Origin: a virus
Virus record (IMG/VR): IMGVR_UViG_3300008107_000123
Location: 1 to 41,603 of that record
DNA: 41,603 bases
Strand: one strand, 5' to 3'
Both the position numbers and the translations under genes were made by a program. Each line of letters begins with the position of its first letter. Position 1 is the stretch's first letter. This document shows positions 1,267 through 40,534 of this stretch, in pieces. The notes under the pieces were generated by a model that made no database searches, was not told the origin of the DNA, and saw only the letters and a program-made list of their open reading frames with translations.

Positions 1267-3498
1267 GTGGCTACCTCGTACAGCAATCTTTATCGCGGCA
1301 AGGGCGATGCTGCGTCCCGCCTTCAGCGTATGGTCGTTCAGGGCAAGGAGATCGCCAAGCAGGAGCGCACCCGCTGGCAGCAGAACCGCATGGTCTACCG
1401 TGGCGACCAGTGGTTCCGCCCCCGCCCCGGCGCTGGTTTTTCCTCTGGTCGGCTTGAAGTTCTTTCCGAGGGGGCTCGCGGACGTCGGCGGGATACGTTC
1501 AACCGACTGCGCCAAATGACGGATGGCCGCGTCTCTGTTCTTACCGCTTCCCGCCCGCCGTACGAAGTCATTCCCAAGACGCGGGATCAGGACGTTCTTG
1601 ACGCTGCTCGTCAGGCACAGAAGTTGATCGCCGCAAAGTGGGACGAGCAGGGGTGGAACGTCGGGGGGAACATCCGCGAACTCGTACTTACTGGCGAGAT
1701 TGACGGCGTTTCTTTCCTCAACGTGACGTTTGATCCGAACTGTGGGGAAGAGACGGTTATCTACGTTGCCCCAGACGGACAGCCGATCGCAACACGCGAG
1801 GCGTACGAAGCGGCGATCCAGCAAGACCCGGACGGTGGGACGCTTTGGATGGAGAAGCGTGTACGCATGGGGGAGATTATCTGGAGAGTTGTACGCCCCG
1901 GCGCGATTGCAACCGATCCATCCGCTACCCACTGGAAGGACACGAACTGGGTAATAGAGTCGAGAGTCCTCCCGAAGGCGAAGATCGAGTCAGATAACAA
2001 CATCCAGATCGACAAACTTCTCAACGATGAGAGGAGCAGGACCGGCGGGGCGAAGAACAACCCCGACCCAACCATCGGTCCTGTTGTAGCCGAGGATGAG
2101 GGGCAACTTACCGATCGGATAATCCCGGGCCGCGAGGAGTACATCGTCCACGAGATGTACATGAAGCCGAGCGCCGAGTGGCCTAAGGGTTGCCACTCTC
2201 GTTGGCTCGACCGCGCACCCGGGCAGCCTCTTCTTGTTGAGGAGTACCCGGACTATGACCTCCCGTATCGTCCGTTCAACCCGAAGCCTGACGGTGGCCA
2301 CTACATGCGCTGCCGCGGGACTGTCGATGAACTGCGCCCGATCCAGCAGCGCTTCAACAGAATCCTCTCGCTGCTCTCTGAATGGATGGAGAAGGTGGCT
2401 CGTCCGCCAGTTCTTGTTCCTGTTGGGGCGCTCCGTGGTCAGGAGTTGTACAACGAGAAGGGGTTTGCGGAAGTCCACCCCCTCGGCGACCCGCACTTCA
2501 TGCCGACTCCGAGCGAGCCTGTTGCGGTGCTGACCCAGCACCTCCAGTGGTGCGTTCAGCAGATGGCCGAGATTGCAAACCAGAGCGACGCTATCCGTGG
2601 AGTCCAGCCCGGAGGCGTGGAGTCTGCAATCGGTATTCAGGCACTAGCGCAGAACTCAGAAACTCAGTTGTCCGGAACAGCGTCTCAGGTCGCCTCGGTT
2701 ATCGAGTGGGGGCTTTCGCGCTCCCTCCGCCTCGTCCGTGACTACTACTCAATCCCCCGCCTTGTGCAGACTTCGGGAGTTGACAACTCGGAGGAACTGT
2801 CTGCGTTTGTCGGGGAGATGGTGCGGGACGCAGAGGATGTCCACATCACCGCGTCCATTCTCCCGAGAAGCCGTGCGCTCCAGTTCCAGACGCTTATGCA
2901 ACTTGCGCCGATCATCGGGAACGACATCCGACCGTATGTCGCTCGTTTCGTCGAGGGTTCTTACGACGAGTTCATTTCGTCTGAAACCGCACAGCGCGAC
3001 AAGCAGAAGCGCGAGAACCGTGCACTTGCTGCGCTTGGCAAGTTGGACGAGCGGGATCAGGTCTGGGCTGACTTCAGCCAGATTCAGGCCCAGTACATGC
3101 AGGCGTTCGCAATGGCATCGTCGCAGGGCGATCCGACCATCGCGCTTTCGATGGCCGGAATCCAGCCGCCCTCGGTTCTTCGCATGCTCCGAGACGCTGG
3201 GGTAAACATCCCAACTGTCGAGGATTACGACGACCACGCGATGCACCTTCGCGCCCTTGACCTGTGGCGGCTTAGCGACGGATACGACGCCATACATCCT
3301 CTTGTCAAGCAAGCCGCACGTGAGCACGCCACTGAACACAAGAAGATGCTTGAACAGCAACTTGTTTCGATGGGGAGCCAAACCCCACCGGATCAGGGTC
3401 CGCAGGGCGGTGGCTCTCCACCGGCACCTAAGGGCCAGCCCTCGCCGCCCAAGGAGAACAAGGGCGGACCACCAGCAACGATAGCGGGGACGATGTGA
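1267..3498 (+). CDS. Portal protein (P22-like, long podovirus type)
   Basis: GTG start 3 nt after the previous stop; 743 residues, the size expected for P22-type portals (about 725) rather than the roughly 400-500 of siphovirus portals. The portal forms the dodecameric ring at one capsid vertex through which terminase pumps DNA and through which DNA leaves. The N-terminus has a basic segment with RWQQNRMVYRGDQWF. The centre contains a conserved acidic/aromatic stretch (EEYPDYDLPYRPFNPKPDGG) followed by a helical stem-like region with IQQRFNRILSLLSEWMEK. The C-terminus is Pro/Gly-rich and polar. Downstream scaffold-like and capsid genes in canonical order support the call. The stop overlaps the next start by 4 nt, implying translational coupling. 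Confidence 0.88.
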   Translation: MATSYSNLYRGKGDAASRLQRMVVQGKEIAKQERTRWQQNRMVYRGDQWFRPRPGAGFSSGRLEVLSEGARGRRRDTFNRLRQMTDGRVSVLTASRPPYEVIPKTRDQDVLDAARQAQKLIAAKWDEQGWNVGGNIRELVLTGEIDGVSFLNVTFDPNCGEETVIYVAPDGQPIATREAYEAAIQQDPDGGTLWMEKRVRMGEIIWRVVRPGAIATDPSATHWKDTNWVIESRVLPKAKIESDNNIQIDKLLNDERSRTGGAKNNPDPTIGPVVAEDEGQLTDRIIPGREEYIVHEMYMKPSAEWPKGCHSRWLDRAPGQPLLVEEYPDYDLPYRPFNPKPDGGHYMRCRGTVDELRPIQQRFNRILSLLSEWMEKVARPPVLVPVGALRGQELYNEKGFAEVHPLGDPHFMPTPSEPVAVLTQHLQWCVQQMAEIANQSDAIRGVQPGGVESAIGIQALAQNSETQLSGTASQVASVIEWGLSRSLRLVRDYYSIPRLVQTSGVDNSEELSAFVGEMVRDAEDVHITASILPRSRALQFQTLMQLAPIIGNDIRPYVARFVEGSYDEFISSETAQRDKQKRENRALAALGKLDERDQVWADFSQIQAQYMQAFAMASSQGDPTIALSMAGIQPPSVLRMLRDAGVNIPTVEDYDDHAMHLRALDLWRLSDGYDAIHPLVKQAAREHATEHKKMLEQQLVSMGSQTPPDQGPQGGGSPPAPKGQPSPPKENKGGPPATIAGTM

Positions 3499-6844: not shown

Positions 6845-7544
6845 CGGGGACTTCCAAGACCTCTACTCAAAGGCGATCTACGGATCGCGGAGAGACACGA
6901 GCGACACATTCGATGTCGCTCGGGCGAAGGAGGCAATCAACGAGGCGTACCTGTACGTAGCGTCAACTGGTGACCCGTGGGACTGGCTTGAAAAGGAAGG
7001 CCAGTTCGATGTCCAGATCGGGCAGGGTGTCTATACCTACGACGCAATCGGCTCAGCCCTATCGACAAGCATCGAAGAAATCCACACACTCACTATGGAC
7101 TCCGGCGACGGAGGGTGGACTCTTGACTCGATGTCTTGGCCTGCGCTTGAACGAGTCGCGTACAGCACTCAGGACGACGAGCAGAACGGGGAACCGATTA
7201 TGTTCTCCAAGTGGGATAGGCGAATCCGCTTGTTCCCTGCCCCAGACGAGGCGTACACCATCGGAATGTTCTACAGGGTGCAGGCGTCGGAGTTGGTGAA
7301 CAACTCAGACGTTCCCCTTCTACCACTGGCGTGGCGCACGCGACTCCTCGTCCCCTTCGCGTGCGCCCGCCTCCTTCGTCAGGAGGGGGGGCAGGAGGCG
7401 GCTGCCGAAGCAGACAGGTACATGCGCGACTTCGAGCGGTCATTCATCGAGGCACGTACTGCAATGGCTACCGCCAAGTACCCGTCCTTCAGGCTCACCT
7501 CCCCCGGATGGGCCGAGAGGTCGTACTGGTACCCGGGGCCGTAG
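6837..7544 (+). CDS. Head-tail adaptor protein (gp4/gp11-like podovirus connector)
   Basis: ATG start overlapping the previous stop; 235 residues. N-terminal helices (residues about 25-45, ARAKEAINEAYLYVAST, then GDPWDWLEK) are followed by a beta region and a C-terminal helix with LLVPFACARLLRQEGG. The helix pair followed by a FDVQIGQGVYTYD strand is the pattern seen in phage adaptor proteins that bind under the portal ring and receive the tail nozzle. The location, immediately before the large nozzle-like gene, fits. The family is assigned by pattern and synteny, not by a search. Confidence 0.65.
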   Translation: MASGDFQDLYSKAIYGSRRDTSDTFDVARAKEAINEAYLYVASTGDPWDWLEKEGQFDVQIGQGVYTYDAIGSALSTSIEEIHTLTMDSGDGGWTLDSMSWPALERVAYSTQDDEQNGEPIMFSKWDRRIRLFPAPDEAYTIGMFYRVQASELVNNSDVPLLPLAWRTRLLVPFACARLLRQEGGQEAAAEADRYMRDFERSFIEARTAMATAKYPSFRLTSPGWAERSYWYPGP

Positions 7545-25622: not shown

Positions 25623-26093
25623 CTAACCGTTGATGTAGCACGAGGCTGCGCCCCATGCGTGGATACCGTAACGAAGCCGAACTCTCTCCGCAACAAGGGT
25701 CTGCTCCTGCCACGTCATGCTCCCGGCGTCGCCCCCGTAGGGGTGGCCGACGCTCTGGTGCGTCGTGTAGTAGAGGCCGTACGCACCCTGCCACTTCCAT
25801 CCGCTCGGGGTGCTGAAGCGCACCCCCGCATACCCCCCGCCGTATCCTGCCTCGCACCTACCGAGGGCGAGGAACTTGCGGATGTTGACTCCACGCACAC
25901 GGAGGTCACGCGCTGTCGGGTTGGTCGGCCACGCCTGCGCGTCCCTCCTCCCCCTTTCTTTGTGCGCCCTTAGGCATTGCGCCTTAGACACTGACGTTGC
26001 CGATGTGTGGTTCTCGCACGGCTTCGCATCTGCGAATCCATACGACACGAAACCCGACGCGCATACCGCTGCGACTGCGATGAACTTCTTCAC
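25623..26093 (-). CDS. Secreted Rpf-like transglycosylase
   Basis: ATG overlaps the previous stop by 4 nt; 156 residues. Residues 1-23 (MKKFIAVAAVCASGFVSYGF, then ADA) form a signal peptide. From about residue 72 the sequence follows the resuscitation-promoting-factor fold: FLALGRCEAG places the catalytic Glu at 81, and QEQTLVAERVRLRYG followed by HAWGAASC (C152) matches the Rpf C-terminus. C80 and C152 would form the usual disulfide. Rpf proteins cleave glycan in actinobacterial walls. Located away from the lysis cassette and exported on its own, it may prepare the wall for release or affect dormancy of the host. Confidence 0.75.
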   Translation of the reverse strand: MKKFIAVAAVCASGFVSYGFADAKPCENHTSATSVSKAQCLRAHKERGRRDAQAWPTNPTARDLRVRGVNIRKFLALGRCEAGYGGGYAGVRFSTPSGWKWQGAYGLYYTTHQSVGHPYGGDAGSMTWQEQTLVAERVRLRYGIHAWGAASCYING

Positions 26094-26356
26094 GACTTGC
26101 CCTCCTCGCTCTTGACCGGGAACCCTGACAGCACCAGCACCCCTACGTAGGGAAGGCAGGCTTCGTGCGCCACCTGATCTGGCGTCATCCCGCTTTCGAT
26201 TGCGTCACGGACTGCACGAATCAACTCTCCTCTCGCCGACATAACCGCTCCGTGCACCACGTACGGGTCGCCCCCCTCGTGCGTGTTGGCCAGCGTGCCC
26301 CACATCTCGTTAGCCGCGCTCGCCTTACGGAGTCGCGCAATGTGCTCGTTGTTCAT
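26090..26356 (-). CDS. Hypothetical protein
   Basis: ATG 26356 has GGAG 6 nt upstream; a TTG four codons earlier is less likely. The product is 88 residues, helical, with no membrane segment (MNNEHIARLRKASAANEMWG; MTPDQVAHEACLPYVGVLVL). It overlaps the Rpf-like gene by 4 nt, so the two are probably co-translated. The family is not recognised. Confidence 0.6.
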   Translation of the reverse strand: MNNEHIARLRKASAANEMWGTLANTHEGGDPYVVHGAVMSARGELIRAVRDAIESGMTPDQVAHEACLPYVGVLVLSGFPVKSEEGKS

Positions 26357-26383
26357 CGTTATCTCCAATCGTTCGTCGATACC

Positions 26384-26411
26384 GGGGCTCGGGACGGGTG
26401 TCCCGAGCCCC
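26384..26411. terminator. GC-rich stem-loop between leftward genes, possible terminator
   Basis: GGGGCTCGGGA (26384-26394) pairs exactly with TCCCGAGCCCC (26401-26411) around a 6-nt loop. On the minus strand no T-run follows. On the plus strand GCTTTT follows, so it could stop antisense transcription or act as a leftward pause or processing site. It separates the AAA/VWA cassette from the Rpf-like/glycosylase block. Confidence 0.5.
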
Positions 26412-26429
26412 GCTTTTCCGTTGCTATCC

Positions 26430-28433
26430 CTAATGAGCCCGCATCATCGAGCGAATCAGGTCGCCGAGGACGCGCGGGATTGCGGCGAGGTCACGCGCCG
26501 TCGAGTAGAACTCGTGGTAGTCAGGGACGACGGGCTGAAGCCCGACCTTCCGTGAGATACCGATCCCGCCCGTGATGATGCCGTTCTTACGGGCGATGTC
26601 GATCTCCTCGGCCACCGTGTGCCTGTTGTTCGGGTGCCCGTCCGTGAGTACCACGATGAGAGGCTGCTCCGCACCACGGTTGAGCGATGCGTTGCGTGCC
26701 CAGATGATGCCGCTCGTCTCGTCCGTGCCACCCCCCGAACCCATCGACACGTGGTCGAGCAGCCGGTAGAAGGAACCGTGCTGACGCGCTGTCGCGTCGA
26801 ACGGGATAGCGGCGATCGGGCCGTGCCCCCCATACGCCGCAACCGCAACGTCCAGCCCGTGTATGCCCTCGCTCGCTCGCTTGATCGAAAGACCGGCGTT
26901 GGCAATCGCGTTACCGCATGCGCCACGTACGGAACTTGACGCATCGAGCAGAAGCACGAGAGAGAAGTCTCGTGCGCCACGTGGACCCTGCTTGGTGCGG
27001 AACACACGTGTGTCGCCGAGCGCAAGCCTGCTCGAACTCTTGACGTCGAACGAACCGCGCCGCCTGCGACCAGCGTACGAACCGTCTGCGTTGTGCTGAA
27101 GCACACGGTTCAGTTGCGATCGGACAACGCGAGACGTCGTTACGACAGCGTTCTCACGCCCGTTGACGTCGTATGACTGCCCCTCATGGCCGATGAAAGA
27201 ACCGTCCATGAAGGCGTCGTGCGTGTCGCGCGGTGCACGCTCGATGTCCTGCCGCTCCTTATCCCACTCACCACGTGGACGGTCGGGGCGCATGGGCTCG
27301 TCGTCATCGTCGTCCAACACGCCGTCGCCACCCTCAACGCCGCCGTGGCTGGTGCCGCTCTCCGTTGAGTCGCCGCCACCCTCGCCGCCGCCACCGTCGT
27401 CGCCACCGTTGCCACCCTCCTGCTCGCTGTCGCCTTCCTCCTGCTGCTCCTCTCCGTCCTCTCCGTCGCTCTCCTCGTCGTCGTTACCCTCCTGCTCGTC
27501 GCCGCCGACGCCAGCCTGCTCGTCGCCGTCGTCGTCCTGCTCCTGCTCACCCCCGTTACCGCCCTGCTCGCCACCCTCCTGCTCGCCACCCTCCTGCTCG
27601 CCACCCTCCTGCTCGTCGCCGTCCTCCTTGCGCTCGTCGTCATCCGGCTCGCCGCCACCGCCACCGCCGCCACCAACGGGCGGGAAGAGCGGCTGCATCG
27701 CTACGTAGACGGGCTCCAGCGCATCGAGCAACGCCTGAGTAGACGGCGTGTCGCACGCTGCGAGGAAGTGCGGGAGAGCGTCGTTGAAAGCGGCACGCTC
27801 CAGCCCCGAGAGGCGGGATACGAACTCGTTCGCACGGCTAGGGATGCAGCGTGTCGAGTAGAGAGCGAGCCCCACGTGACGGAGCGCATCCATCTGGTCG
27901 TACTGGTGGACGTTGCCCATAAGCAGGCGCTCGTTCTCAATCGAGCGCAGCGCAGCGAACACGGGAACCTCCTGCTCACCAGCGTCCTCGATACGAACGT
28001 CCTCCGTCATGTTGAGGATGCCGAAGAAGTCCTGCCAATGCGCACGTTCGCACCAGTCGGGGCGCTCAACCCACCCGGTGAAGAGAACGTGGAACAACTC
28101 GTGCAGCAACGTGGTAAGCGCCTCACCACGCATGATCGCTGACATCCCGCCGTGCGACGCCGAGACGGTAAGCGACGACCAATGCACGTGGTACACCTTC
28201 GTGCCCTGCGCACGCTCGATGTCAACGGCCCACGTTCCGCCGACGTTGTGGTGAAGGACGATCCTTGCGTGGTTGCCCAACACCGCGCTTGCGGTGGAGG
28301 CAATCTCACGCTCCGCTGCTGTACGTGCAGCGACAACGGAACCGTACGAGTGACCGAGAAGCGGCTCGCCCCACCGTGCGGGGTCGCTTGCGAGCGTACC
28401 GCCGATGGTCGGTGCCTGTGCCTGTGTAGTCAT
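26430..28433 (-). CDS. VWA protein with HExxH metallopeptidase-like domain (CobT / DUF2201-like)
   Basis: ATG 28433 has GAGG 5 nt upstream; the frame is open 53 codons further left but there the neighbouring gene is coded. The product is 667 residues. Residues 100-150 hold HELFH (H111-H115) and TEDVRIED (E144-D150), a zinc-peptidase-like pattern as in DUF2201/CobT-type proteins. A strongly acidic Gly/Glu/Gln linker covers about 250-380, with a run of eight Gly and repeats of EQEGG. Residues 490-667 are a VWA domain with an intact MIDAS: DASSS (D497, S499, S501), GTDE (about 569-572) and LTDGH (D598). Such proteins partner with MoxR-type ATPases, here two genes upstream, in chaperone or metal-insertion machines. 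Confidence 0.78.
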   Translation of the reverse strand: MTTQAQAPTIGGTLASDPARWGEPLLGHSYGSVVAARTAAEREIASTASAVLGNHARIVLHHNVGGTWAVDIERAQGTKVYHVHWSSLTVSASHGGMSAIMRGEALTTLLHELFHVLFTGWVERPDWCERAHWQDFFGILNMTEDVRIEDAGEQEVPVFAALRSIENERLLMGNVHQYDQMDALRHVGLALYSTRCIPSRANEFVSRLSGLERAAFNDALPHFLAACDTPSTQALLDALEPVYVAMQPLFPPVGGGGGGGGEPDDDERKEDGDEQEGGEQEGGEQEGGEQGGNGGEQEQDDDGDEQAGVGGDEQEGNDDEESDGEDGEEQQEEGDSEQEGGNGGDDGGGGEGGGDSTESGTSHGGVEGGDGVLDDDDDEPMRPDRPRGEWDKERQDIERAPRDTHDAFMDGSFIGHEGQSYDVNGRENAVVTTSRVVRSQLNRVLQHNADGSYAGRRRRGSFDVKSSSRLALGDTRVFRTKQGPRGARDFSLVLLLDASSSVRGACGNAIANAGLSIKRASEGIHGLDVAVAAYGGHGPIAAIPFDATARQHGSFYRLLDHVSMGSGGGTDETSGIIWARNASLNRGAEQPLIVVLTDGHPNNRHTVAEEIDIARKNGIITGGIGISRKVGLQPVVPDYHEFYSTARDLAAIPRVLGDLIRSMMRAH

Positions 28434-28455
28434 AACTACCTCGCTCTCTGCCTGT

Positions 28456-29307
28456 CTAGGCGTTGTCGTCGTCGTTAGACGGCTTGGTGTAGAGGAACTC
28501 CGTGAAGTCCGAAAGCCTGTAGCGCGTGCTCTTCCCGCACTTGCCGTTCTCGTGCAGGAAACCGGACTCATGGAGGCGTGCAACTGACGCACGAACCTGT
28601 GCCCGGGTGAGCGTCACGCCGAACTCCGACTGGATGAGTTCGACGATCCCCCACCCGGTCGTCCCGTAGTTACCGGCGTCGTGCATGGGGGTGTACTTAC
28701 GGACGTTCTCGATGGTGAACCCGATGTACATCTGCTCGCTGTCCGCGAGGTTGCGTGCCTCGGCGTCGGCGTGACCGGCCTCCGTCCTCGTCTTGTATAC
28801 GAAGTCGCGGGTAGCGGAGTGCTTCTTACGCACGGCTATCTGCACGGCGAGGTCAACGAGCCCGGGGTCGATACGAGGCGGGCGCTTGCGGTCGGGGTCT
28901 TGCGCCGCAGCGTCGGCTGCGACACGGTACTCATCGAGGTGCGACTGCAACTCGTTCGCCTGCTCATTCATGCGCAGTGCTGACACGTCACCGTAGATGC
29001 CGCCCTCCTGCGCCACGACCACCATGCTCACGGTCGGGATGTCCGTGCCCGTGTTGGGAACAGACGAGAACGAGCGGTCGGGGTCATGCTCACCGTCGCT
29101 AGGCGCAGGGTCGGGAGCATCGTCCTCCTGTGGCGCCGTGTACGGGGCCACGTACTCCTGCTCTGCCTCCTGCTCGGGCGCCTCCGCTACCTGCTGCGGC
29201 TGCTCCGCTGCTGCCTCTGCCGCCTTACGTGCGGCCTCGAACGCACCGATGATGGCCTGCGCGTCGGCGACGCTGACGCCATCGGGAATCTCGAACGTAA
29301 CTTCCAT
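28456..29307 (-). CDS. Middle protein of the AAA/VWA cassette, C-terminal winged-helix-like
   Basis: ATG with GCGAGGTACGG upstream; 283 residues. The N-terminal 75 residues start with a short strand and an Ala/Glu-rich helix and go into a disordered acidic Pro/Glu region (EQEAEQEYVAPYTAP). The middle contains a charged helical segment (RMNEQANELQSHLDEY). Residues about 225-272 have a winged-helix look (LIQSEFGVTLTRAQVRASVA; KSTRYRLSDF). No known family. Lying between the MoxR ATPase and the VWA protein, and likely transcribed with them from the 30.5-kb promoter, it is the best candidate for a substrate adaptor or DNA-binding specificity factor. Confidence 0.65.
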   Translation of the reverse strand: MEVTFEIPDGVSVADAQAIIGAFEAARKAAEAAAEQPQQVAEAPEQEAEQEYVAPYTAPQEDDAPDPAPSDGEHDPDRSFSSVPNTGTDIPTVSMVVVAQEGGIYGDVSALRMNEQANELQSHLDEYRVAADAAAQDPDRKRPPRIDPGLVDLAVQIAVRKKHSATRDFVYKTRTEAGHADAEARNLADSEQMYIGFTIENVRKYTPMHDAGNYGTTGWGIVELIQSEFGVTLTRAQVRASVARLHESGFLHENGKCGKSTRYRLSDFTEFLYTKPSNDDDNA

Positions 29308-29333
29308 GTCCGTACCTCGCTTTCTGTCGTTAT

Positions 29334-30455
29334 CTACGAGAGGGGCAGGCCGTCATCGCCGACGGCGAACATCGCCATCACGTTGCGGACGGGCTGCCGC
29401 TCGTCGGGAGGGAACTTGGCGATGAGCGCACGCTCGGCTGCCTCGCTCCACGTGTAGCAACCGGAGTCCATCGCCTCTGCCCACGTTGCGAGTGAGCGGA
29501 AGCCGATCGGGTGCATGATGTCCTGCGCATCGCGGATGCGCTTGGCGACCTCGCACATTGTCTTAGCAACGGACGGGTCGAGCGTGGGGATGAGCGACTG
29601 CAACGCAAGCGCCTCGTCGATCGGGTCCGGGTAGTCGATCGTCGGCGTCCACTGAAGCCGGTTCTCGAACGCCGGGTCCAACTCGTTCGTACCTACGTAC
29701 TCGTGCGGCGGGTTCGCCGTCGCCACCAGCACAAGGTCGCCACGGTCGATCGTCTCGCCCGTGGGCAGGGTGAGCCGTGCCGTGCCGTCAAGCAGCGGCA
29801 TGAGCGCGGCGTACTCGTTGACGTCACGGATACGGTTGATCTCGTCGATGAGCAGGACAGTCGGACGGTCGTGCGAGATACGCGCAGCCGTTGCGATCTG
29901 CCTGTCATGCCACTTGATCGTGGGCGCACCCGTCTGGTCGTGAGCAGCGGGCAACTGCGTGCCAACCATCGTGTCCTCGTTAGCGCCCGGGGTAACGGAC
30001 ACGATCACGAGGTTCCACCCGAGCATGGACGTAAGCCATTCGATGCTGGCCGTCTTGCCGCACCCCGTGGGGCCGAACACGATCGTGTTCGTGCGGCTAC
30101 GGAGGGCGTACATGATGTCGTAGAGGTACGAATCCTGCCCCACGAGGGGGCGTGCGCCCGGTGACGGGGACGCAGGCGTTCCCGGCTCCTTCGCAATGGT
30201 GATGCGGGGCTTGTTCGGGAGGTCGGAGTGGACGCTGGCGGCGTCGTCGCTGATACCCGAGCCCGTGCCCTGCTGCGGGGTTGCGCTGTCACGGGTGAAG
30301 TAGACGGGGGTGGTCGTGTTGCTCAACGTGCTGGGCAGGTCGATCAACACGTTGCCATTCACGCCGACCGTCACTGCGAGAACGTCACCCCCGTCCACGG
30401 ACAGCACCCCACGGTCGGGGTTGCTCGTGTCGGGCATGAGAGTGATGCTAGGCAT
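29334..30455 (-). CDS. MoxR-type AAA+ ATPase (CobS-like)
   Basis: ATG 30455 with AAGGAG 10 nt upstream; earlier starts are not conserved. The product is 373 residues. A short beta-rich N-terminus of about 105 residues precedes the AAA+ core: GPTGCGKT (Walker A, 128-135), VLLIDEINRI (Walker B, D204-E205), ATANPP (sensor 1, N248) and ENRLQWT (arginine finger R266). The set matches the dynein-like/MoxR/CobS group, which works with VWA proteins. It is the first gene after the 30.5-kb promoter. ATP hydrolysis would remodel a target for the VWA-metallopeptidase partner; the substrate is unknown. Confidence 0.82.
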   Translation of the reverse strand: MPSITLMPDTSNPDRGVLSVDGGDVLAVTVGVNGNVLIDLPSTLSNTTTPVYFTRDSATPQQGTGSGISDDAASVHSDLPNKPRITIAKEPGTPASPSPGARPLVGQDSYLYDIMYALRSRTNTIVFGPTGCGKTASIEWLTSMLGWNLVIVSVTPGANEDTMVGTQLPAAHDQTGAPTIKWHDRQIATAARISHDRPTVLLIDEINRIRDVNEYAALMPLLDGTARLTLPTGETIDRGDLVLVATANPPHEYVGTNELDPAFENRLQWTPTIDYPDPIDEALALQSLIPTLDPSVAKTMCEVAKRIRDAQDIMHPIGFRSLATWAEAMDSGCYTWSEAAERALIAKFPPDERQPVRNVMAMFAVGDDGLPLS

Positions 30456-30507
30456 AGTGGTGGTACTCCTTGCTCGTGGTTTCCCGGCTGGTTGCCGGAC
30501 TGAAAAC

Positions 30508-30538
30508 ACCGTAGCAGTCCAAGAATCCCCTGCTAATC
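30508..30538 (-). promoter_or_regulatory. Leftward promoter P3, upstream of the MoxR/VWA cassette
   Basis: On the minus strand, GATTAGCAGG (30538-30529) is followed after 15 nt by TACGGT (30513-30508). Read as sigma-70-like, TTAGCA is the -35, 17 nt is the spacer and TACGGT the -10. Transcription would begin near 30500, about 45 nt before the ATPase start. Two other copies with the same spacing lie at 32445-32475 and 33347-33377. Upstream bases AAAAGTGCC are also shared. Confidence 0.75.
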
Positions 30539-39591: not shown

Positions 39592-39842
39592 TCGCTGCAA
39601 TCGTAATCCTCGGCGTCACTACCGTCGTCAACGGCGGGCTTGCCGCGTTCATCTTCTTTATGGGCCAGCGCGAGCGCGTCTCGCTGCTTGACCGTATTCA
39701 GGCGCCCGAGGCGGCGCGGATGGCGTCTGTCGTTCAGACGCTCGACTCTGTTCCGACCGCTGAGGAAGCGGAGACTCTGGTCGGAATCAACGTCCCGTGG
39801 GACGACGACCTCCGCATGATCCTGTCCGAGGAGGACAACTAA
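39588..39842 (+). CDS. Small membrane protein, N-terminal TM segment
   Basis: ATG 39588 overlaps the previous stop; the open frame extends left but there it shadows the neighbour. The product is 84 residues: hydrophobic helix at 1-24 (MIAAIVILGVTTVVNGGLAA), then an acidic helical soluble part (QTLDSVPTAEEAETLVG). It might anchor in the host membrane or be a small virion membrane protein. Confidence 0.58.
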   Translation: MIAAIVILGVTTVVNGGLAAFIFFMGQRERVSLLDRIQAPEAARMASVVQTLDSVPTAEEAETLVGINVPWDDDLRMILSEEDN

Positions 39843-40121
39843 ATGTCTGTCACCACATCCAACGTCACCGTTGGAACGACGGCGACGCTGCTTTGTGGGA
39901 CTGACCCGAAGCGTCGTCGCCTGTACATCAAGAATGTCCATTCCAGTAAGGCGTACATCGGACCCCTCGGAGTCACGACGGCCAACGGTTTCCACGTTGG
40001 CGTTGACGAAACCATCGTGATCGAGAACTCGCACCCCGCCGACGGATCTGCGAAGAACGCCTACTACGCCGTTCTCGGCTCTGGCTCCGGCACGGTATCG
40101 GTCATGGAGATCACTGACTGA
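39843..40121 (+). CDS. Small beta-rich virion protein
   Basis: ATG right after the previous stop; 92 residues with strand pattern (NVTVGTTATLLCGTDPKRRR; YAVLGSGSGTVSVMEITD). It resembles small beta-sandwich proteins found beside tail-fibre genes in environmental phages. A single Cys lies at about 18. The next gene begins at its stop. Confidence 0.6.
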   Translation: MSVTTSNVTVGTTATLLCGTDPKRRRLYIKNVHSSKAYIGPLGVTTANGFHVGVDETIVIENSHPADGSAKNAYYAVLGSGSGTVSVMEITD

Positions 40122-40534
40122 TGGCTTCCGGACTTAGCGACTACTTCGAGAACCAAGTTCTTGGAAAGATTTTCGGAAACCAGACGCTCACCGTTCCGGG
40201 CACGTACTACATCGGACTCTGGACGGCCACGCTCTCGGACTCGTCAACTGGATCGACCGCAGGCGAGCCATCTGGCGGTTCCTACGCTCGTGTCTCAGTT
40301 ACGAACAGCGGGTCAAACTGGGACGCTGTATCGGGTGGCGCGACCGCTAACACGAACCTGATCGCGTTCCCCCTTGCGACTACCTCGTGGGGCACGGTCA
40401 CTTATGTCGGAATCTGCGACGCGCTCACGGCGGGCAACATGATTGCTTACGCACAGTTGACTACCCCGGTCAGCGTTGCACAGTACGACACCGTGCTGTT
40501 CCAGCCCGGTGACCTTGACATCACGCTTACCTAA
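40121..40534 (+). CDS. Tail-associated protein upstream of the fibre gene
   Basis: TGATG overlap; 137 residues. GLSDYFENQVLGKIFGNQ, then TYYIGLWTATLSDSSTG, SYARVSVTN and WGTVTYVGICDALTAGNM, follow a pattern I recognise from small conserved tail or fibre-associated proteins of many tailed phages. Likely a beta-sandwich at the base of the fibre. The function is inferred from context. Confidence 0.68.
   Translation: MASGLSDYFENQVLGKIFGNQTLTVPGTYYIGLWTATLSDSSTGSTAGEPSGGSYARVSVTNSGSNWDAVSGGATANTNLIAFPLATTSWGTVTYVGICDALTAGNMIAYAQLTTPVSVAQYDTVLFQPGDLDITLT

Follow-up and report, generated by a model that had tools for sequence, protein, structure and literature searches.

Pairs of genes coding for an AAA+ ATPase and a protein with a VWA domain are already known from viruses under two descriptions. 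Liu et al. 2021 (PMC8651126) found cobST genes to be widespread in tailed viruses, proposed a role connected with cobalamin and regarded the peptidase annotation as mistaken. In jumbo phages of group 2.2, Iyer et al. 2021 (PMC7824862) described a MoxR-vWA pair whose vWA member carries a metallopeptidase at its N-terminus, and proposed that it acts in virion assembly. Surveys of aquatic viruses count viral cobS and cobT as vitamin B12 auxiliary genes (e.g. PMC13390420). PHROGs labels one of these families 'peptidase'. The nearest solved relatives of the ATPase and VWA fold considered here are Midasin (Rea1/MDN1), which differs in being a single giant chain, and the NorQ-NorD and CbbQ-CbbO systems. 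To our knowledge, none of the three has been described with an HExxH domain like the one reported below.

The locus lies in a window of 41,603 nucleotides, the whole stretch of DNA analysed, which is part of a 68,267-bp uncultured virus record. Three leftward reading frames were confirmed, all on the minus strand. They code for an AAA+ ATPase of the MoxR/Midasin/CbbQ class ('CobS-like', 373 aa, 29334-30455), a middle protein (283 aa, 28456-29307) and a protein composed of a metallopeptidase-like domain, an acidic linker and a VWA domain ('CobT-like', 667 aa, 26430-28433). Two gene starts were corrected using sister alignments and ribosome-binding sites. The longer ATPase frame reaches GTG 30509, but the start is most likely ATG 30455, which has AAGGAG upstream and coincides with the point where the sister proteins begin. 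Similarly, the VWA protein most likely starts at ATG 28433 and not at GTG 28592 within the middle gene. This leaves intergenic gaps of 26 and 22 nt. A sequence-only reading of this DNA had already described the three genes as leftward and closely spaced, which agrees with these frames. It had also given them a promoter of their own (P3); this was not recovered, since a strict consensus scan upstream of the ATPase, covering the sigma-70 type only, returned no promoter. A hairpin with a 13-bp stem (26383-26412) is located directly 3' of the VWA stop codon. It carries no T run on the minus strand and is a possible transcript end or processing site.

The cassette resembles viral CobST in that an AAA+ gene lies near a gene for a VWA/MIDAS protein, and the HExxH and ED motifs also occur in the cyanophage and HCTV-2 proteins. 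It differs by the presence of a third, winged-helix gene and by a VWA protein without any CobT profile match. The published description of the jumbo-phage system, a MoxR AAA+ protein beside a vWA cochaperone that bears a metallopeptidase(-like) domain at its N-terminus, is closer to what is observed here. However, the window belongs to a lineage of 42-kb phages in which a winged-helix gene is co-inherited with the pair.

The ATPase matches the Pfam AAA_5 domain (E 4e-16) and phrog_249 (E 1e-26). Its set of AAA+ motifs is complete: the Walker A motif GPTGCGKT (30051-30074, minus strand), the Walker B acidic pair DE (29841-29846, minus strand) and the sensor and arginine residues N266 and R284, each of them invariant among the sister phages. 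Of the solved structures Midasin is the nearest (E 6e-25), followed by CbbQ and NorQ.

The third protein matches the Pfam VWA profile (E 3e-7). Its MIDAS residues D497-S499-S501 (motif DASSS, 26931-26945), T570 (26724-26726) and D598 (26640-26642), all on the minus strand, are invariant across six homologues. It thus combines a VWA fold, a full MIDAS and a gene adjoining that of the ATPase, as expected of a VWA cochaperone of MoxR-type ATPases. Compared with the PDB, the model of this protein matches the VWA domains of Midasin-MIDAS and of NorD; both are partners of such ATPases, which supports the assignment as a cochaperone. In BFVD, phage CobT/VWFA proteins were matched over 600-800 columns. 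The VWA domain is preceded by a linker (27150-27674, minus strand) that is rich in Gly and Asp/Glu (49 G, 64 D/E and 10 K/R in 175 residues) and modelled with low confidence. The models of the VWA protein (pTM 0.38) and of the middle protein (pTM 0.49) rest on 6 and 4 sequences respectively, and therefore only their local folds were used.

The N-terminal domain of the VWA protein carries an HExxH motif (HELFH, residues 111-115, 28089-28103, minus strand). NMTEDVRIE (N141, E144, D145 and E149; 27987-28013, minus strand) would complete the putative metal site and is conserved as well. The corresponding domains of 14 divergent VWA-type proteins were aligned, sampled from mobile elements: phages of Actinobacteria, cyanobacteria, Vibrio and haloarchaea, ~110-kb enterobacterial plasmids and an integrative island. 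The sole invariant columns are H111, E112, H115, N141 and D145, while T119, E144 and E149 are nearly so. An HExxH motif conserved together with N, D and almost always E is the pattern expected of a metal site, and a conserved acidic residue downstream of HExxH is also expected of a zincin. The model suggests a zincin-like arrangement as well: HELFH falls on a helix that follows strands, and the helix after it bears NxxED. A fold search with the whole model matched mostly on the VWA domain. The best PDB profile match of the N-terminal domain is the DNA-protein crosslink protease Wss1, a weak one (E 0.057) extending over HExxH. Across phages, phage-plasmids and the island, this domain thus appears to keep little beyond HExxH...NxxED...E, an observation that is new here.

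All but one of the 23 mobile-element proteins compared (22 of 23) retain an intact HExxH; the count is 20 of 21 if two homologues (L044 and L045) found via a pattern set containing HExxH are left out to avoid bias. The exception is a CobT-like protein of an Acinetobacter plasmid (L048:2888-4810), which has QEVAK instead and represents a natural loss of the site. In an Aeromonas plasmid (L061:2556-4825) the HExxH and VWA domains are encoded by two adjacent genes, a natural split. In contrast, six cellular CobT-type proteins (from Sphingomonas, Sinorhizobium, Cereibacter, Pandoraea, Paraburkholderia and Photobacterium) all lack the motif; three of them have HDxxxH. This difference between proteins of mobile elements and cellular CobT is also new here. 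The data favour the architecture described for the jumbo phages (PMC7824862) and disagree with the rejection of the peptidase annotation (PMC8651126). Counts of viral B12 auxiliary genes would describe another function, provided that a protease-like site absent from cellular CobT is retained in the mobile-element proteins.

The middle protein gave no family match in Pfam and PHROGs-type searches. About half of its AlphaFold model, mostly in the N-terminal part, is of low confidence; the helices at residues 108-176 and a C-terminal winged helix (residues 214-265, 28513-28668, minus strand) are confident. The latter is predicted to comprise helices 221-229 and 235-248 and strands 251-257 and 260-265 (block pLDDT 66-87), in line with a winged helix-turn-helix fold. 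PDB matches of the model are mostly winged-helix DNA-binding proteins (TubR, RosR, LmrR), the best with E 0.05 and none significant alone. The protein may be a subunit of the machine, a substrate or DNA adaptor, or a regulator, and its DNA binding is putative. Two possible counterparts were rejected. The cyanophage 'DNA binding protein' encoded between peptidase and cobS (Syn33_146) has no similarity to it, and the N-terminal HTH-like helices of cyanophage CobS and of the HCTV-2 ATPase are not supported as a fused version of the middle domain (hhalign probability below 5%).

Most of this architecture had been anticipated by the sequence-only reading. The intact AAA+ core, the VWA domain with its MIDAS, the HELFH/TEDVRIED metallopeptidase-like domain, whose motifs prove to be the most conserved residues of the N-terminal region, and an unrecognised middle protein with a winged-helix-like end are all borne out. 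The components of the substrate-directed remodelling or proteolysis system that it proposed are supported in this way; the target it suggested, host proteins or defences, is not (see below).

Relatives of the phage were reached through its capsid protein, which retrieved ten related viral contigs; one metagenome-assembled contig in the bacterial-genome search also carries a similar capsid protein. A DNA-level search of phage records with the window gave no match, single-protein pattern scans of viral contigs found no relatives, and the VWA protein had none in bacterial genomes. Scans based on alignments of the ATPase and of the VWA protein recovered three sisters already reached through the capsid protein, and two distant VWA loci besides. 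These sisters (G001, G003 and G004; 41-43 kb) have both genes at the same genome place, with 64-70% identity to the window for the ATPase and 36-43% for the VWA protein, indicating that the cassette is more than a chance assembly. The middle gene has a homologue in each sister, and thus accompanies the pair in all four carriers within this group. In G001 it lies between the other two genes, as in the window, while in G003 and G004 it is found directly behind the VWA gene, its start overlapping the VWA stop codon. The homology is chained via G001 (E 5e-9 with the window and 2e-13 with G004, in tiny databases), and a profile comparison between the two pairs of sisters gave a probability of 95%, again in a tiny database. 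A fourth relative, G008 (43.9 kb, completeness uncertain), has a capsid protein 84% identical to that of the window; searches found no cassette gene in it, and the corresponding stretch is without such frames. The cassette therefore looks accessory and, as far as four carriers show, inherited as a set. The co-inherited third gene beside an AAA-VWA pair appears to be new, and offers a handle on the target of the machine.

A small HTH-like gene (72-87 aa) lies behind the cassette in G001, G003 and G004. At the same place the window has a 92-aa frame (26090-26368, minus strand) with no detectable similarity to it. Genes for serine recombinases occur near the cassette locus in G003 (L025:18235-18963) and G008 (39755-40492), so that these phages may be temperate.

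The preferred reading, to which we give a probability of about 0.5 in its full form, is a machine that remodels proteins at the expense of ATP, has a protease of the zincin type built in and is accompanied by a winged-helix accessory; it would likely operate at phage DNA. This reading builds on the observed gene content, intact motifs, conservation and co-inheritance of the third gene. The ATPase would assemble into a ring with the VWA protein for a cochaperone; the metal site of the MIDAS would grip either an acid of the substrate or the ring. The N-terminal domain, if it binds zinc and is catalytic, would clip the substrate once remodelled. The winged-helix protein would be an accessory subunit, perhaps contacting DNA or acting as a substrate adaptor. 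The most likely setting would be phage DNA replication or recombination, where the machine would clear or process DNA-bound proteins, and this link to DNA is the softest part of the reading. Against the reading as a whole weigh the weak zincin match, the indirect nature of the neighbourhood evidence and the possibility that the winged helix merely regulates the operon.

In this last case the AAA-VWA machine would stand and the middle gene would code for a simple transcription regulator of the cassette. This is possible, if on the unlikely side: winged helices are typical of regulators, and the middle gene both shifts position among the sisters and diverges fast. However, it accompanies the pair in each of the four carriers, always within the same gene run, and was not found in G008, where the pair is lacking.

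The setting was approached through the neighbours of AAA-VWA pairs elsewhere, in a survey picked by hand and made with no background count. The pair adjoins gp46, clamp and clamp-loader genes in cyanophages, dnaE in ~110-kb plasmids of Escherichia, Klebsiella, Cupriavidus and Aeromonas, and ssb and bet in a Salmonella integrative island. In Brevibacterium phage Cantare the distance to dnaE is a few kb, and in ICP2 the pair precedes primase and helicase genes. In the window phage, the cassette points away from the replication genes. Taken together, these neighbourhoods suggest a replication or recombination setting. This does not fit well with the idea that ATPase and VWA protein are chaperones helping to build the virion. 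Such a role has been proposed for the jumbo-phage pair, with processing by the peptidase (PMC7824862), and for the pair of Acidianus two-tailed virus (PMC7911831), and MoxR-VWA pairs are typically assembly chaperones. However, G008 shares the portal and tail genes as well as the capsid protein and has neither the ATPase nor the VWA gene, as far as its uncertain completeness allows. We consider the assembly role unlikely here.

A wider generalization of the preferred reading would be that most 'CobST' pairs of mobile elements are ATP-powered metalloproteases directed at DNA-bound proteins, the winged helix tethering the machine to DNA in this phage genus. Such machines would be counterparts of Wss1/SPRTN with Cdc48/p97 in plan and not in descent. 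The shared plan would consist of a zincin, an AAA+ motor and a DNA contact, and the weak profile match extends over HExxH. Yet the match reaches no further than the motif helix, the AAA+ proteins belong to another class, and the Wss1/SPRTN systems have no VWA protein. The generalization as a whole is doubtful.

A counter-defence or host-takeover protease, unfolding and cleaving host proteins, is improbable. An AAA+ protein joined to a protease is a sensible design against such targets, and the accessory distribution of the cassette among the sisters would suit it. However, no link with defence genes was found, the PADLOC matches being weak P-loop similarities only, and the pair is also kept by phages and plasmids unrelated to one another, which argues for a general task. 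The neighbourhoods elsewhere, too, point to DNA replication and recombination and not to the host or defence target that had been suggested.

The relationship with cobaltochelatase was assessed with CobT profiles. The window VWA protein matches neither PF06213 nor PF11775 (Pfam, E 1) nor TIGR01651 (NCBIfam, 0.01), and PF06213 has no match across the window's record even at E 10. For TIGR01651, with a cut-off of 759, a cellular CobT scores 839 and mobile-element proteins 74-107 or nothing. Nevertheless, the ICP2 protein matches CobT_C (E 8e-29), the island protein matches PF06213 barely above its cut-off, and this profile reaches 4 of the 14 N-terminal domains. The CobT N-terminus and the HExxH domain are therefore probably related, and the site may have been lost in the chelatase line. 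The published proposal (PMC8651126) that viral CobST joins host CobN and raises B12 production for DNA synthesis can draw on these scattered profile matches, but is very improbable for this cassette given its unmatched VWA protein, the HExxH contrast and searches that found neither CobN (PF02514), and hence no chelatase gene set, nor ribonucleotide reductase in the window phage and its four relatives.

The 68-kb record consists of two related phage genomes arranged head to tail. Window positions 4 to ~24,000 correspond to positions 42,080-68,267 of the record (L002, L003), one unit measuring ~42.08 kb, and the recurrent genes (portal, capsid, exonuclease and others) share 65-86% DNA identity. 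This doubled unit could stem from prophages in tandem, from two genomes joined during assembly or from a hybrid concatemer. Next to the cassette, the window codes for a small secreted protein (25623-26093, minus strand) that resembles actinobacterial transglycosylases by a weak Pfam match and is conserved in the sisters. The second unit includes a gene of this type in reversed orientation (L003 ~6977-7390, plus strand). The portal protein (window 1267-3498) is 19-23% identical to portals of Cellulosimicrobium, Microbacterium and Arthrobacter phages, a likeness which suggests that the host is probably an actinobacterium.
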